This document shows, in pieces, positions 3,836 through 9,543 of a stretch of 64,000 nucleotides of DNA. Every line of letters begins with the position of its first letter. The stretch's first letter is position 1. The position numbers and the translations under genes are program-made. Origin of the DNA: Bacteroides ovatus (GTDB lineage: Bacteria > Bacteroidota > Bacteroidia > Bacteroidales > Bacteroidaceae); the NCBI RefSeq assembly GCF_001314995.1, contig NZ_CP012938.1:124001-188000 (forward strand), written 5' to 3'. The notes under the pieces were generated by a model. It saw only the letters and a program-made list of their open reading frames with translations. It did not search any database and was not told where the DNA came from.

Positions 3836-4327
3836 ATGAAGAAGATAATAAATCCCTGGAAAGGTTTGGAAGGGTACAACTGCTTTGGTTGTGCTTCCAA
3901 TAATGAAGCCGGATTAAAAATGGAATTTTACGAAGATGGTGACGAAGTGGTAAGCATTTGGAAACCACGTCCCGAATATCAAGGCTGGATTGATACCTTG
4001 CATGGCGGTATTCAAGCTGTCTTGATGGATGAAATCTGTGCCTGGGTTATACTTCGTAAACTACAAACCACGGGGGTGACGTCGAAGATGGAAACTCGTT
4101 ACCGAAAATCGATTGATACCAAAGATTCTCATATCGTATTACGCGCGTCTATTAAAGAGGTAAAGCGGAACATCGTTATTGTTGAAGCAAAGTTATATAA
4201 TAAGGATGGAGAAGTCTGTACAGAATCAGTTTGTACTTACTTTACTTTCTCGAAAGAAAAGTCGAAAGATGAAATGCATTTTTCGAAATGTGATGTAGAA
4301 TCGGAAGAGATATTACCATTAATTTGA
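3836..4327 (+). CDS. PaaI-type hotdog-fold acyl-CoA thioesterase
   Basis: This 163-residue protein begins MKKIINPWKGLEGYNCFGCA. Its central sequence GWIDTLHGGIQAVLMDEICAW carries the HGG...DE motif of PaaI/YbgC-like hotdog thioesterases, in which this helix lines the acyl-CoA pocket and supplies the catalytic acid. It probably hydrolyses an acyl-CoA; the substrate cannot be read from sequence. A -7 box TATATTTG lies at 3799-3806, 29 bases before the ATG. The gene is followed by the his promoter, so it is probably monocistronic. Confidence 0.8.
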   Translation: MKKIINPWKGLEGYNCFGCASNNEAGLKMEFYEDGDEVVSIWKPRPEYQGWIDTLHGGIQAVLMDEICAWVILRKLQTTGVTSKMETRYRKSIDTKDSHIVLRASIKEVKRNIVIVEAKLYNKDGEVCTESVCTYFTFSKEKSKDEMHFSKCDVESEEILPLI

Positions 4328-4356
4328 AATAAAAACTTAAGTTTTTGTGATAAATG

Positions 4357-4388
4357 TTTGGTAGTATCAAACAAATACTTTACTTTTG
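4357..4388 (+). promoter_or_regulatory. Promoter of the histidine operon (-33 TTTG, -7 TACTTTTG)
   Basis: TTTG at 4357-4360 and TACTTTTG at 4381-4388 are separated by exactly 20 bases. This matches the Bacteroides sigma-ABfr consensus (TTTG, 19-21 bases, TAnnTTTG). Transcription should start near 4394, about 15 bases before the leader peptide start codon. Confidence 0.8.
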
Positions 4389-4408
4389 TCGCAGTTAATA
4401 AAAGAAAT

Positions 4409-4456
4409 ATGAAATATACAGCTACACATCATCATCATCATTTTCCTAACGAATAA
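4409..4456 (+). CDS. hisL: Histidine leader peptide, 15 residues with five consecutive His
   Basis: The frame ATG...TAA reads MKYTATHHHHHFPNE. Five CAT codons in a row (4427-4441) lie eleven codons or fewer from the start, between a good promoter and a terminator upstream of hisG. By analogy with enterobacterial hisL, ribosome pausing at these codons would sense charged tRNA-His. There is no strong Shine-Dalgarno sequence, which is normal for Bacteroides. The position, composition and downstream structures make chance unlikely. The hisL name is by functional analogy. Confidence 0.85.
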   Translation: MKYTATHHHHHFPNE

Positions 4457-4532
4457 TCGGTGGGCGTGGATGATATTGTGTATAACTATATAAACGATAA
4501 CGAAGGCTTACCGAATGCGGTAAGCCTTTTTT
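4457..4532 (+). promoter_or_regulatory. his attenuator: antiterminator and intrinsic terminator
   Basis: The terminator is an 11-bp perfect stem, 4503-4513 with 4518-4528, around a four-base AATG loop, running into T4527-4532. The alternative antiterminator pairs 4457-4465 (TCGGTGGGC) with 4506-4514 (GCTTACCGA), nine pairs including two G-U, and uses up the 5-prime terminator arm. The antiterminator arm begins one base after the leader stop codon. A ribosome that finishes the peptide would cover it and allow termination, whereas one stalled at the His codons would leave it free and let transcription enter hisG. Confidence 0.8.
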
Positions 4533-4585
4533 GTTTTTCAACGCAGATTGTATTTGTAATTAATAATTAGTAATTAAATAAAGTC

Positions 4586-5437
4586 ATGTTAAGAATCGCA
4601 GTACAAGCCAAAGGACGTCTCTTCGAAGAGACAATGGCACTTTTAGAAGAGTCAGATATCAAGTTAAGCACTACTAAACGTACCTTGTTGGTACAGTCTT
4701 CTAACTTTCCTATCGAAGTTCTATTTCTTCGTGATGATGATATTCCGCAAACGGTAGCTACCGGGGTAGCTGATTTGGGAATTGTTGGTGAGAACGAGTT
4801 TATGGAAAAGGAGGAAGATGCGGAAATTGTCAAACGTCTGGGATTCAGCAAATGTCGTCTGTCACTGGCTATGCCGAAGGATATTGAATATCCCGGTTTG
4901 TCATGGTTTGAAGGCAAGAAGATTGCTACCTCTTATCCGGTTATTCTTCGTAACTTCCTGAAAAAAAATAGCGTAAATGCCGAAATACATGTGATAACCG
5001 GTTCGGTAGAGGTGTCTCCGGGTATTGGATTGGCTGATGCCATTTTTGATATTGTAAGTTCCGGTTCTACTTTGGTCAGCAACCGCTTGAAAGAAGTGGA
5101 AGTTGTAATGAAGTCGGAAGCATTGTTGATTGGCAACAAGAACATGAGCGAAGAGAAAAAAGAAGTGCTCGAAGAATTGCTGTTCCGTATGAACGCAGTA
5201 AAAACAGCTGAAGATAAAAAATATGTATTGATGAATGCTCCAAAAGACAAACTGGAAGAAATCATAGCTGTATTGCCCGGTATGAAGAGTCCTACAGTGA
5301 TGCCATTGGCACAGGAAGGCTGGTGTTCTGTTCATACAGTACTTGATGAAAAACGTTTTTGGGAAATTATCGGAAAATTGAAAGGACTGGGAGCAGAAGG
5401 TATTTTGGTACTGCCGATTGAAAAGATGATTGTATAA
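4586..5437 (+). CDS. hisG: ATP phosphoribosyltransferase, long form (HisG)
   Basis: HisG catalyses the first step of histidine synthesis, joining ATP and PRPP to give phosphoribosyl-ATP. The 283-residue length fits the homohexameric long form, with a C-terminal ACT-like regulatory domain (about residues 210-283) that binds histidine. The start MLRIAVQAKGRLFEETMALL and the ATGVADLGIVGENEF and GSVEVSPGIGLADAIFDIV segments (PRPP-binding loop) are characteristic. It is the first structural gene after the attenuator, so it would be under both attenuation and probable allosteric control. hisD follows 41 bases downstream. Confidence 0.97.
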   Translation: MLRIAVQAKGRLFEETMALLEESDIKLSTTKRTLLVQSSNFPIEVLFLRDDDIPQTVATGVADLGIVGENEFMEKEEDAEIVKRLGFSKCRLSLAMPKDIEYPGLSWFEGKKIATSYPVILRNFLKKNSVNAEIHVITGSVEVSPGIGLADAIFDIVSSGSTLVSNRLKEVEVVMKSEALLIGNKNMSEEKKEVLEELLFRMNAVKTAEDKKYVLMNAPKDKLEEIIAVLPGMKSPTVMPLAQEGWCSVHTVLDEKRFWEIIGKLKGLGAEGILVLPIEKMIV

Positions 5438-5478: not shown

Positions 5479-6768
5479 ATGAAATTGATTAAATATCCCT
5501 CAAAAGAGCAATGGACAGAACTTTTGAAACGTCCGGCACTAAATACGGAAAGTTTGTTCGATACTGTTCGTTCTATTATAAATAAGGTAAGGACAGAAGG
5601 CGATAAAGCAGTATTGGAATATGAGGCTGCTTTTGATAAAGTAACCTTGTCCGCACTTGCTGTGACTCCTGAAGAGGTTCAAGCCGCCGGGACATTAGTA
5701 AACGATGAACTAAAGGCTGCCATTTCTTTAGCTAAACAAAACATTGAAACATTCCACTCTTCCCAGCGTTTTGTCGGGAAGAAGGTAGAGACAATGAATG
5801 GGGTAACTTGCTGGCAAAAATCAGTGGGAATCGAAAAGGTCGGCTTATATATTCCGGGTGGAACAGCACCGCTTTTCTCAACTGTATTAATGTTGGCTGT
5901 TCCGGCTAAAATTGCAGGATGCAAGGAAATCGTACTTTGTACGCCTCCCGATAAAAATGGAAATATTCATCCGGCTATCCTTTTTGCTGCGCAATTGGCA
6001 GGTGTCAGCAAAATATTCAAGGCTGGTGGTGTGCAGGCTATTGCCGCTATGGCCTATGGAACGGAGAGTGTCCCCAAAGTATATAAGATATTTGGCCCCG
6101 GCAATCAATATGTGACAGCTGCCAAACAGTTGGTAAGCCTGCGTGATGTAGCTATTGATATGCCTGCCGGTCCTTCAGAAGTGGAAGTCTTGGCTGATGC
6201 ATCTGCCAATCCGGTTTTTGTAGCAGCAGATCTTTTGTCACAGGCAGAACACGGAATAGATAGCCAGGCTATATTGATTACCACTTCCGAGAAACTTCAA
6301 ACAGAGGTGATGGAAGAAGTGGAGCGTCAATTAGCAGAACTTCCCCGTCGTGAAATTGCGGCGAAATCACTGGAGAATAGTAAATTGATTTTAGTGAAGG
6401 ATCTGGATGAAGCATTGGAACTGACTAACGCGTATGCTCCGGAACATCTAATCATAGAAACGGAGAACTATATGGAAGTGGCCGAACGTGTGATAAATGC
6501 AGGTTCTGTCTTCTTAGGTTCATTAACTCCCGAGAGTGCCGGCGACTATGCTTCCGGAACGAATCACACCCTGCCGACCAACGGTTATGCCAAAGCCTAT
6601 AGCGGTGTAAGTCTGGATAGTTTTATCCGTAAGATTACATTTCAGGAAATCCTCCCGGAAGGAATAAAAGCTATCGGTCCTGCTATTGAAGAGATGGCGG
6701 CTAATGAACAGCTGGATGCACATAAAAATGCCGTCACAGTTCGTCTCAAAGCAATTCAAAATTCATAA
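5479..6768 (+). CDS. hisD: Histidinol dehydrogenase (HisD)
   Basis: HisD is a 429-residue zinc- and NAD-dependent enzyme that oxidises L-histidinol to histidine in two steps. Diagnostic segments are [45 protein letters not shown] (Rossmann-type NAD site) and [15 protein letters not shown] with the zinc-binding Gln/His pair. Further catalytic histidines lie in YAPEHLIIE and SGTNHTLPT. The length is normal for the family. It lies between hisG and hisC in the operon; hisC starts 16 bases after the stop codon. Confidence 0.97.
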
Positions 6769-6784
6769 TTTAAAACTTAAAGAA

Positions 6785-7825
6785 GTGAAAACGTTACAAG
6801 AACTAACCCGACCGAATATCTGGAAATTAAAACCCTACTCTTCGGCACGAGATGAATATAAAGGAGTTACAGCCTCTGTTTTCCTGGATGCAAACGAAAA
6901 CCCTTACAATACGCCTCATAATCGCTATCCGGATCCTATGCAGTGCGAACTGAAGACGTTGTTGTCGAAAATCAAAAAAGTATCTCCCAAGCATATTTTT
7001 CTTGGAAACGGTAGCGATGAAGCCATCGACTTGGTTTTTCGTGCATTCTGCGAACCGGGAAAAGATAATGTCGTAGCCATCGACCCTACTTATGGTATGT
7101 ATCAGGTTTGTGCCGATGTGAACGATGTGGAATACCGGAAAGTATTACTGGATGATGACTTCCAGTTCTCTGCCGATAAACTGCTGTCGGCTACCGACGA
7201 ACACACCAAATTGATTTTCCTTTGCTCGCCTAATAATCCAACAGGAAATGACTTGCTCCGTTCTGAAATTGTAAAGGTACTTTGTCAGTTCGAAGGATTG
7301 GTGATGTTGGATGAGGCTTACAATGATTTTTCCCAGGCTCCGTCTTTCCTCGAAGAGCTGGATAAATATCCCAACCTTGTCGTATTCCAAACATTCTCCA
7401 AGGCTTGGGGATGTGCTGCAATTCGCTTGGGAATGGCTTTTGCTTCCAAAGAAATTATAGACATTCTTAGTAAAATCAAATATCCCTATAATGTCAATCA
7501 GTTGACTCAACAACAAGCTATTTCTATGTTGCATAAGCACTATGAGATAGAACGTTGGGTGAAAACGTTGAAGGAAGAGCGTGATTATCTGGAAGCGGAA
7601 TTTGAAAAACTTCCATGTACCATTAAACTGTTCCCGTCCGATGCGAATTTCTTTTTGGCAAAAGTGACGGATGCCGTGAAAATCTATAATTATTTGGTAG
7701 GGGAAGGAATAATAGTGCGTAATCGCCATAACATTTCACTTTGCTGCAACTGTTTGCGTGTGACTGTCGGTACTCGTGTCGAAAATAATACCCTATTGGC
7801 AGCTCTTAAAAACTATCAAGGATAA
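6785..7825 (+). CDS. hisC: Histidinol-phosphate aminotransferase (HisC), GTG start
   Basis: This is a PLP-dependent fold-type I aminotransferase converting imidazole-acetol phosphate and glutamate to histidinol phosphate. It has NPTGNDL (phosphate and substrate site), [10 protein letters not shown], and [15 protein letters not shown] containing the Schiff-base lysine. The frame is open upstream to an ATG at 6686, but that would overlap hisD by 83 bases and add an unrelated N-terminus. The GTG at 6785 gives a 346-residue protein beginning [20 protein letters not shown], the usual HisC start, and I prefer it. hisB begins 4 bases after the stop. Confidence 0.95.
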
Positions 7826-7828
7826 TTT

Positions 7829-8953
7829 ATGAAGAAGAAAGTATTATTTATAGATAGAGACGGCACGTTGGTGATCGAACCTCCTGTAGATTACCAACTC
7901 GACTCATTGGAAAAACTGGAATTCTATCCGAAAGTATTCCGTAATTTGGGCTTTATCCGCAGTAAGCTCGATTTTGAATTTGTGATGGTCACTAACCAGG
8001 ATGGATTGGGTACACCTTCTTTTCCGGAAGAAACATTCTGGCCTGCCCATAACTTGATGCTTAAAACATTGGAAGGGGAGGGGATTACTTTTGATGAGAT
8101 TCTGATAGACCGTAGTTTTCCTGAAGATAATGCGCCCACCCGCAAACCGCGTACCGGAATGTTGACGAAGTATCTGGATAATCCGGAATACGATCTTGCC
8201 GGAAGTTTTGTAATAGGCGATCGTCCCACAGATGTGGAACTTGCCAAAAATATCGGTTGCCGGGCAATTTATTTGCAAGACTCGACCGAAGCTCTGAAAG
8301 AAAAAGGATTAGAAGAAGTCTGTGTTCTTGCAACTACTGATTGGGATCGGATAGCCGAATTCCTTTTTGCCGGAGAACGGAAAGCGGAAGTACGTCGTAC
8401 TACAAAAGAAACAGATATTTATGTTGCTTTGAATCTTGATGGAAATGGAACTTGTGACATTTTTACCGGTCTTGGCTTTTTCGATCACATGCTTGAGCAG
8501 ATTGGAAAACATTCTGGCATGGACTTAACCATCCGTGTTAAAGGAGATTTGGAAGTAGATGAACATCATACGATCGAAGACACTGCTATCGCACTGGGCG
8601 AATGTATCTATCAGGCTTTAGGTAGCAAACGAGGGATTGAACGTTATGGCTATGCCTTACCGATGGATGATTGTCTTTGTCAGGTTTGTCTGGACTTCGG
8701 TGGTCGTCCCTGGTTAGTTTGGGATGCTGAATTCAAGCGTGAGAAGATAGGAGAGATGCCGACGGAAATGTTCCTTCATTTCTTTAAGTCACTAAGTGAC
8801 GCGGCAAAGATGAATTTGAACATCAAAGCGGAAGGACAGAATGAACATCATAAGATAGAAGGAATTTTTAAAGCCCTTGCCCGTGCTTTGAAAATGGCAA
8901 TTAAAAGAGATATCTATCATTTTGAACTTCCATCTAGTAAGGGTGTGCTTTAA
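7829..8953 (+). CDS. hisB: Bifunctional histidinol-phosphatase / imidazoleglycerol-phosphate dehydratase (HisB)
   Basis: This 374-residue fusion has an N-terminal HAD phosphatase (residues about 1-165, nucleophile motif FIDRDGT at residues 7-13, later [13 protein letters not shown]) and a C-terminal IGP dehydratase (about 185-374) with the two metal-binding signatures [15 protein letters not shown] and [16 protein letters not shown]. It catalyses the sixth and eighth steps of histidine synthesis. Such fusions are known in enterobacteria and Bacteroidota. Its TAA stop overlaps the ATG of the next gene by one base, implying translational coupling. Confidence 0.97.
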
Positions 8954-9543
8954 TGTTTTTTAGAATCATATCCATATTGCTTATGCAAAAGCAAATCCCA
9001 CTATGCTTATTGGCGATAGTCTTATCCGTCTCTCTTTTCGGTCAAAATCTGAAAGCGGATAAGATTATTCTGTCTGATAGTGATTTGACAAATTTGTATC
9101 AAATAGATTCGGGCGTATATCGTTCGGAGCAACCTTCAAAAGAGGGCTTTAAAGCTTTAGAAAAGTATGGTATTGGAGAAGTACTTAATCTACGAAACAG
9201 ACATAGTGATGATGACGAAGCAAAAGGAACAAGTATAAAACTTCACCGGGTAAAAACTAAAGCACATTCGATTAGTGAAAAGCAATTGATACAGGCATTA
9301 CGCATTATTAAAAATCGTAAAGCGCCTATTGTTTTCCATTGTCACCACGGCTCTGACCGTACAGGGGCTGTTTGTGCGTTTTATCGTATCATTTTTCAGA
9401 ATGTTTCAAAAGAAGATGCAATCCATGAAATGACTGAAGGAGGCTATGGCTTTCATCGAATTTATAAGAATATTATTAGAAGAATCAAGGAAGCAAATGT
9501 GGAGCAAATAAGAAAAGAAGTAATGGAAGGTGGAGAGTTATAA
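8953..9543 (+). CDS. Secreted dual-specificity/tyrosine phosphatase-like protein
   Basis: This 196-residue protein has an N-terminal signal-like hydrophobic stretch (about residues 15-30) and a cysteine-phosphatase loop HCHHGSDRTG, in which C130 and R136 form the CX5R active site. IDSGVYRSEQPSKEGF and VLNLRNRHSDDDEAKGT match the DSP/PTPase branch near plant- and fungal-like atypical DSPs (general acid D in the second segment). The start codon overlaps the hisB stop, so it is co-translated with the his genes. An alternative start at 8983 gives a more typical signal peptide. The substrate is unknown. An exported phosphatase cannot act on cytoplasmic histidinol phosphate, so the operon link is unexplained. 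Confidence 0.85.
   Translation: MFFRIISILLMQKQIPLCLLAIVLSVSLFGQNLKADKIILSDSDLTNLYQIDSGVYRSEQPSKEGFKALEKYGIGEVLNLRNRHSDDDEAKGTSIKLHRVKTKAHSISEKQLIQALRIIKNRKAPIVFHCHHGSDRTGAVCAFYRIIFQNVSKEDAIHEMTEGGYGFHRIYKNIIRRIKEANVEQIRKEVMEGGEL

Follow-up and report, generated by a model that had tools for sequence, protein, structure and literature searches.

The question raised by the DNA in front of the histidine operon of Bacteroides ovatus is whether the region separating hisG from a thioesterase-like gene (3836-4327, Pfam 4HBT) is a ribosome-mediated transcription attenuator and, if so, whether it works with two competing helices or with the three-state logic of the classical systems. The window analysed here is a stretch of 64,000 nucleotides from a genome consisting of a single contig of 6,472,489 bases, and unlabelled positions are those of the window. 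A sequence-only reading had proposed his-operon attenuation by a leader peptide, in a design simpler than the four-segment one and with no need for a protector helix. The individual elements which it named (the promoter boxes, the 15-codon ORF, the five CAT codons, both pairings and the T-run) were all found in place. The leader lies directly upstream of hisGDCB, the genes of which were identified by NCBIfam models:

4586..5437, plus strand: hisG, first gene of the operon (TIGR00070, TIGR03455)
5479..6768, plus strand: hisD (TIGR00069)
6686..7825, plus strand: hisC (TIGR01141), listed from a TTG, the true start probably being later
7829..8953, plus strand: hisB, bifunctional (NF003937)

A tyrosine/dual-specificity phosphatase-like gene (8953-9543, plus strand; Pfam Y_phosphatase3 and Tc-R-P) overlaps the last base of hisB with its start and is apparently the fifth gene of the operon; it had no NCBIfam match. 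A second his cluster is present in the same genome (L287; G000:C1:1693500-1699500, minus strand), in which hisF was identified by TIGR00735 and further ORFs are presumed, from their resemblance, to be hisH, hisA and hisI. A search of the genome with the genus model R1 (see below) returned no match in this cluster up to an E-value of 10, which suggests that it lacks a leader of the hisG type.

The features of the hisG leader are as follows:

4357..4360, plus strand: -33-like promoter box TTTG (sequence, conservation of spacing)
4381..4388, plus strand: -7-like promoter box TACTTTTG, of the form TAnnTTTG (sequence, conservation)
4409..4456, plus strand: leader peptide ORF MKYTATHHHHHFPNE, 15 codons from the ATG at 4409, with the stop codon TAA at 4454-4456
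4427..4441, plus strand: five His codons (CAT)5, the putative sensor and part of the 5' strand of the protector
4423..4482, plus strand: protector hairpin, -19.3 kcal/mol (minimum free energy fold, pair counts in alignment A1), with helices 4423-4428/4477-4482, 4431-4436/4469-4474, 4439-4441/4466-4468, 4445-4447/4462-4464 and 4450-4452/4457-4459
4457..4465, plus strand: antiterminator 5' arm TCGGTGGGC
4503..4528, plus strand: intrinsic terminator hairpin of 11 bp with a 4-nt loop, and a T-run at 4527-4532
4506..4514, plus strand: antiterminator 3' arm GCTTACCGA, overlapping the terminator (pairing, conservation)

The two boxes are separated by a spacer of 20 nt and are taken to represent the Bacteroides promoter consensus (TTTG / TAnnTTTG), while 129 nt lie between the stop codon of the ORF and hisG. 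The 151-nt leader is predicted to fold with -43.1 kcal/mol (z = -5.82), and none of 200 shuffles was equally stable.

How often such a combination would arise by chance was gauged within the window and the genome. With a crude filter, a His-rich short ORF was found in 82 of 1272 overlapping 400-base stretches on both strands of the window, and an ORF together with a terminator in eight, two of which are the hisG leader itself; nearly the same filter is passed by 133 of 166 hisG upstream stretches. The other window sites passing it (stretches from about 800, 34800 and 56500, plus strand) are probably due to chance. The genome has 63 sites with a run of four consecutive CAY codons and 44 with the reversed pattern; such a run is not rare, so it is the ensemble of elements which counts. 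Among 30 of these 63 sites (L167-L196, middle 600 bases), a His-rich ORF with a terminator was found only at hisG.

A comparison of hisG upstream regions across Bacteroidota, a check which the sequence-only reading had itself suggested, was made on 166 stretches, namely 72 from the genus, 47 from the rest of the order and 47 from the rest of the phylum, sampled from 114, 74 and 210 genomes with a hisG match, respectively. The first 27 loci of each set are its best HisG matches, and in two loci (L010 and L150) a contig end truncates the stretch. A short ORF rich in His codons is present in 148 of the 166 loci (68 genus, 38 order, 42 phylum), some of those outside the genus being doubtful by eye (e.g., L047, L130, L132, L139 and L146). 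Both ORF and terminator were present in 133 loci (66, 35 and 32), and 102 (58, 16 and 28) also had an antiterminator arm at a shuffle p of 0.05 or below, where about 7 of the 133 would be expected by chance. When counted over 59 families of genomes, 49 have the leader, 43 the terminator and 25 a significant arm. By the criterion used, no leader was found at 18 loci (10 families), and the arm threshold was missed by 31 of the 133 loci with a terminator, 19 of these being among the 35 from the order. The misses within the genus were L010 (truncated by a contig end), L020 and L124 (each with an ORF of two His codons) and L089 (no leader), while L029 and L093 were not passed by the terminator finder. 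With regard to the promoter, all 66 genus loci have TAnnTTTG in the 75 nt which precede the first His codon, as do 26 of the 35 order loci and 13 of the 32 phylum loci; the background for this box on the plus strand of the window is 0.056 per 70 nt. TTTG or TTTC is located 17-23 nt 5' of it in 61, 17 and 7 loci of the three sets, respectively. That the His run, the terminator and the antiterminator are conserved within the genus, and in other families as well, supports the attenuation by a leader peptide which had been proposed.

The antiterminator (TCGGTGGGC with GCTTACCGA; 9 bp including two G-U pairs, -12.7 kcal/mol) and the terminator (AAGGCTTACCG at 4503-4513 with CGGTAAGCCTT at 4518-4528; 11 bp, -17.1 kcal/mol, then TTTT) are mutually exclusive, positions 4506-4513 being common to both. 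Their conservation was examined in alignment A1, which comprises 62 genus sequences (66 loci, reduced to 63 when identical stretches were dropped, and L011 left out). Pairing of the terminator in A1 amounts to 96.0%; both sides have changed in 29 cells, including both-side changes at two pairs, and its covariation score was reached by none of 500 shuffles. For the antiterminator, 98.0% of cells are paired, compared with at most 54.7% when the arms are slid; no pair in A1 has changed on both sides, and the covariation score was equalled by 471 of 500 shuffles, as would be expected of a strand obliged to fit two partners. Support for the antiterminator lies instead in its invariance, the slide control and its replacement between lineages. 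In lineages with other terminators the arm and the codons were seen by eye to change along with them, as in L070, where CCCGTTTGAG is found with CTCAAGCG, and in L073, where CTTACC-AGAC-GGTAAGC is located 5' of GGCTTACCG.

A third conserved structure, the protector hairpin at 4423-4482, was absent from the sequence-only reading. In this hairpin the antiterminator arm, together with its 3' flank, is paired to the His codons and to those which follow. It is the best fold of the pre-terminator RNA and is present in all 66 genus loci with a terminator. In A1 it is 78.6% paired, compared with at most 57.2% when slid, 40 cells have changed on both sides, and its covariation score was reached by none of 500 shuffles; pairing over the 62 sequences is 97.0% in the inner helix, of which the arm itself forms part, and 62.6% in the middle part. 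In pre-terminator folds the arm has an upstream partner in all 66 genus loci, in 30 of the 35 order loci and in 29 of the 32 phylum loci, while the His codons have a downstream partner in 66, 26 and 29, respectively. The z-scores of the protector region are moderate, with medians of -1.86 (genus), -1.78 (order) and -2.26 (phylum), and reach -1 or below in 47 of the 66 genus loci.

The consequences of ribosome position were computed with a model which takes the equilibrium fold at one chosen transcript end, where the terminator 5' strand has just been made, and which assumes the ribosome edge to be 10 nt past the A site. The number of arm bases, out of 13, computed to lie on the terminator arm was 0.12 for the ribosome-free RNA and 0.34 when the ribosome stands at the stop codon; it rose to 9.71 when the ribosome stands at the first or last His codon, or when the protector 5' strand is removed. 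Codon by codon, the exposed fraction of the arm is 0.75 through the His run and the following Phe codon, and 0.03 at the stop. For the ribosome-free state, the stall at the last His codon and the stop state, in that order, the median exposures were 0.01, 0.74 and 0.02 for 58 genus loci, 0.07, 0.73 and 0.00 for 16 order loci, and 0.46, 0.75 and 0.00 for 28 phylum loci, so that the ribosome-free state is less clean in the phylum set. A stall gain of at least 0.2 was seen in 48 of 58 genus loci compared with 12 of 28 phylum loci. When the footprint was set to 7, 10, 13 or 16 nt past the A site, the arm exposure during a stall was 0.4 or more in 101, 99, 95 and 84 of 102 loci, respectively, and the stop state left at most 0.1 of the arm exposed in 49, 88, 93 and 93.

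These results bear on the explanation which survives best beside the three-state one, namely that only the antiterminator and terminator compete and that the arm is covered directly by the ribosome when it reaches the stop codon, no protector being involved. It would account for the stop codon ending right before the arm in this leader, for the computed masking at the stop (0.34 of 13 bases paired) and for the arm being only half hidden without a ribosome in the phylum set. However, the protector is the best pre-terminator fold here and throughout the genus loci, with pair changes on both sides, and in its absence an untranslated leader would leave the arm open (9.71 of 13) and allow read-through. 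Moreover, the adjacency of stop codon and arm, on which the simpler design had been based, is true of this leader but is not a conserved rule, as in other genus members the stop lies within or past the arm. The two-helix design is thus considered unlikely, and its claim that no protector helix is needed is not supported: on the computed folds the leader is, in the genus, a classical three-state attenuator and not a simpler one.

The preferred reading, to which a probability of roughly 0.88 is assigned, is that the hisGDCB leader is a ribosome-mediated transcription attenuator with classical three-state logic. Found together at the locus are a His-run ORF before the operon, a terminator, and an antiterminator and a protector which are each exclusive pairings, the protector being less clear in the phylum set. 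From the sequence, its conservation, the exclusive pairings and the computed folding, we infer where transcription starts, that the ORF is translated, and that ribosomes stall and the polymerase reads through, in the following manner. RNA polymerase would start near 4395 and a ribosome would translate the His-run peptide. When charged tRNA-His is short, the ribosome would stall on the CAT codons and break the protector from its 5' side, so that the arm at 4457-4465, which lies 15 nt downstream of the last CAT codon, remains available to 4506-4514; the antiterminator so formed would block the terminator and hisG would be transcribed. When histidine is plentiful, the ribosome would reach the stop codon and cover the arm, and the terminator would form. 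With no ribosome loaded, the protector hairpin would hide the arm and the terminator would form too. The leader most likely switches on the histidine biosynthesis genes when histidine is scarce, as judged from its sequence and the folding model.

A control mode other than competing helices, whether by Rho, by reinitiation at hisG or by a nascent peptide sensing free histidine, is considered very improbable at this locus. Eight relatives (L061, L062, L064, L135, L137, L141, L142 and L143) have a His-rich ORF before hisG and no terminator by the criterion used, which perhaps reflects weaker terminators or another form of control, so that other modes may exist in the phylum. Here, however, an intrinsic terminator with compensatory changes is present, the 129 nt from the stop codon to hisG are long for reinitiation, and the peptide outside the His run differs between families. 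Least probable of all is the reading in which the hairpin is the usual terminator of the thioesterase gene, the His-rich ORF beside it is due to chance and the hisG promoter is located downstream: the gene does end at 4327, a terminator-like hairpin does precede hisG and His-rich short ORFs are found in 82 of 1272 window stretches, but the ORF, arm, protector and terminator are retained as a set in different families and a promoter-like box shortly precedes the ORF in all 66 genus loci.

Returning to the three-state attenuator, the distance from the last His codon to the start of the arm was found to have a median of 13 nt (s.d. 3.3) in the 102 loci passing the arm test, on which alone it was measured. 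It lies within 10-16 nt in 86 of the 102 loci, compared with 15% of shuffled spacers. As related sequences are not independent, the count by families is the fairer one, and 18 of 25 family medians fall within this range. The position of the stop codon relative to the arm is more variable (s.d. 8.6). By eye, the stop codon lies within the arm in genus loci L105, L125 and L126, past the arm in L032, L103, L109, L114 and L123, and at or beyond the end of the arm in family f113. A kept His-to-arm distance with a floating stop codon amounts to a natural mutation series which measures the reach of the ribosome. It is put at even odds that these leaders form a Bacteroidota-wide his attenuator class without an Rfam family, in which selection keeps the distance from the last His codon to the arm at 10-16 nt (the ribosome's reach) and the stop codon and arm sequence drift, which occurs in tandem in at least one genome and which has an origin apart from the enterobacterial one.

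On inspection, two complete His leader units in tandem were seen before one hisG (L157:80-413, minus strand), the first with the peptide MHPEMRTIKAHTALHHHHHHLNGMEK and a terminator, the second with MKNMKLHTVHHLHHHHWAGIPLWKCCSMP and a second terminator; R1 matches both weakly (35.2 and 29.3 bits).

The distribution of the leader was also followed in 80 named loci; a His-rich ORF is present in 24 of them, 20 of which have a terminator as well. Leader and terminator were found in 16 of 17 loci from Bacteroides, Mediterranea, Phocaeicola or Paraprevotella, the sole miss being a Mediterranea locus with two His codons. Within 300 nt of hisG they were found in none of 48 loci from Prevotella, Prevotellaceae and Xylanibacter (among L210-L275), a count which follows from all 20 loci with leader and terminator being labelled otherwise, and three of the 48 (L210, L248 and L260) have a His-rich ORF without a terminator. 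Named loci outside both groups had both elements in 4 of 15 cases. This suggests that the control has been lost or moved in the Prevotella lineage; the loss may not be complete, as one Prevotellaceae locus (L258) has a weak R1 match beyond 300 nt (23.7 bits, E 0.0013).

The genus model R1, made from A1, scores 119.6 bits at its own site, and nothing else in the genome exceeds 31.3 bits, that match being the other strand of the hisG leader site. Two further R1 matches in the genome (L283 and L284) look like ordinary gene-end hairpins and were not taken as copies. Reverse-strand matches at true sites reach 34.3 bits, which is attributed to the palindromic nature of terminators, and only forward matches well above this value therefore mean much. 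Forward matches of 40.4 to 73.7 bits were obtained for ten loci outside the genus sample (L217, L208, L045, L223, L034, L037, L220, L073, L066 and L058), including L066 from family f111 and L073 from f144. L070 (f113), at 18.1 bits, is no better than the E. coli his leader (18.3 bits, E 0.027), and R1 thus does not demonstrate a common origin of the leaders throughout the phylum. A Bacteroidota his-leader family, perhaps more than one, could nevertheless be defined; A1 and R1 could seed such an RNA family and help to annotate short ORFs in gut genomes. In Bacteroides, where gene control is less well known than in enterobacteria, the leader offers a clear, testable case of translation-coupled termination, and as such would be evidence that the ribosome follows the polymerase closely enough in this genus to steer folding.

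With regard to described systems, the Rfam scan of the window gave nothing at gathering score. Neither His_leader (RF00514) nor Bacteroid-trp (RF01692) had a window match at gathering (49 bits each), and RF00514 was absent from the 14 matches up to an E-value of 10 in 4300-4600; weak matches to Phe_leader (22.1 bits) and Thr_leader (17.8 bits), both with a cut-off of 55 bits, were not taken as membership. In the literature searched, with most subscription journals outside its scope, no description of a Bacteroides his attenuator was recognised. An abstract by Vitreschak and colleagues from 2004 reportedly names some Bacteroidetes attenuators. The transcriptome of B. thetaiotaomicron is described as including short ORFs in 5' UTRs which are reminiscent of leader peptides, and the main text of that paper has neither "hisG" nor "histidine" (PMC7366714).

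The earlier remark that his attenuation is less documented in Bacteroidota is a fair one, a hisG element having been reported, in the passages compared, from Flavobacteriaceae (PMC9723704). This upstream structured element, from the same phylum and in front of the same gene, is listed there among elements which other genera share and which no Rfam family matches; strong indications of attenuation by leader peptides in front of amino-acid operons are reported as well. The comparison is one by description, anatomy and Bacteroides lying outside the passages compared (PMC9723704).

Bacteroid-trp is a named family (RF01692; Weinberg, 2010; PMC2864571) from the same phylum and is present in the same genome as the his leader, where its only match was found at G000:C1:1454077-1454221 (L280:1501-1645; 113.5 bits) with WWW codons. 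The ORF 3' of it presumably is trpB, which it resembles. The two leaders are alike, by inspection, in having a leader peptide whose run of regulatory codons lies inside the 5' strand of a long hairpin, and then a terminator; they differ in that Trp codons take the place of His codons. In addition, the distance from the last Trp codon to the start of the best arm of Bacteroid-trp is 25-27 nt in each of the 23 parsable loci of 30 (the seven left out include the trp locus of this genome), with 5 of the 23 arms passing the shuffle test, and the spacing seen in the his leaders is thus not shared with it.

Attenuators of his and trp operons are a known kind of control, and the enterobacterial his leader (RF00514, E. 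coli hisL) works by ribosome-mediated logic. The E. coli leader (L318) scores 131.6 bits with RF00514, unlike the window, L024, L066 and L070, which fall below the gathering score. It is nonetheless like the leader described here in having a His-run leader peptide and a strong terminator before hisG. As the kind itself is textbook the surprise is limited: the hisGDCB leader most probably belongs to a known kind of system, the his-type attenuators.
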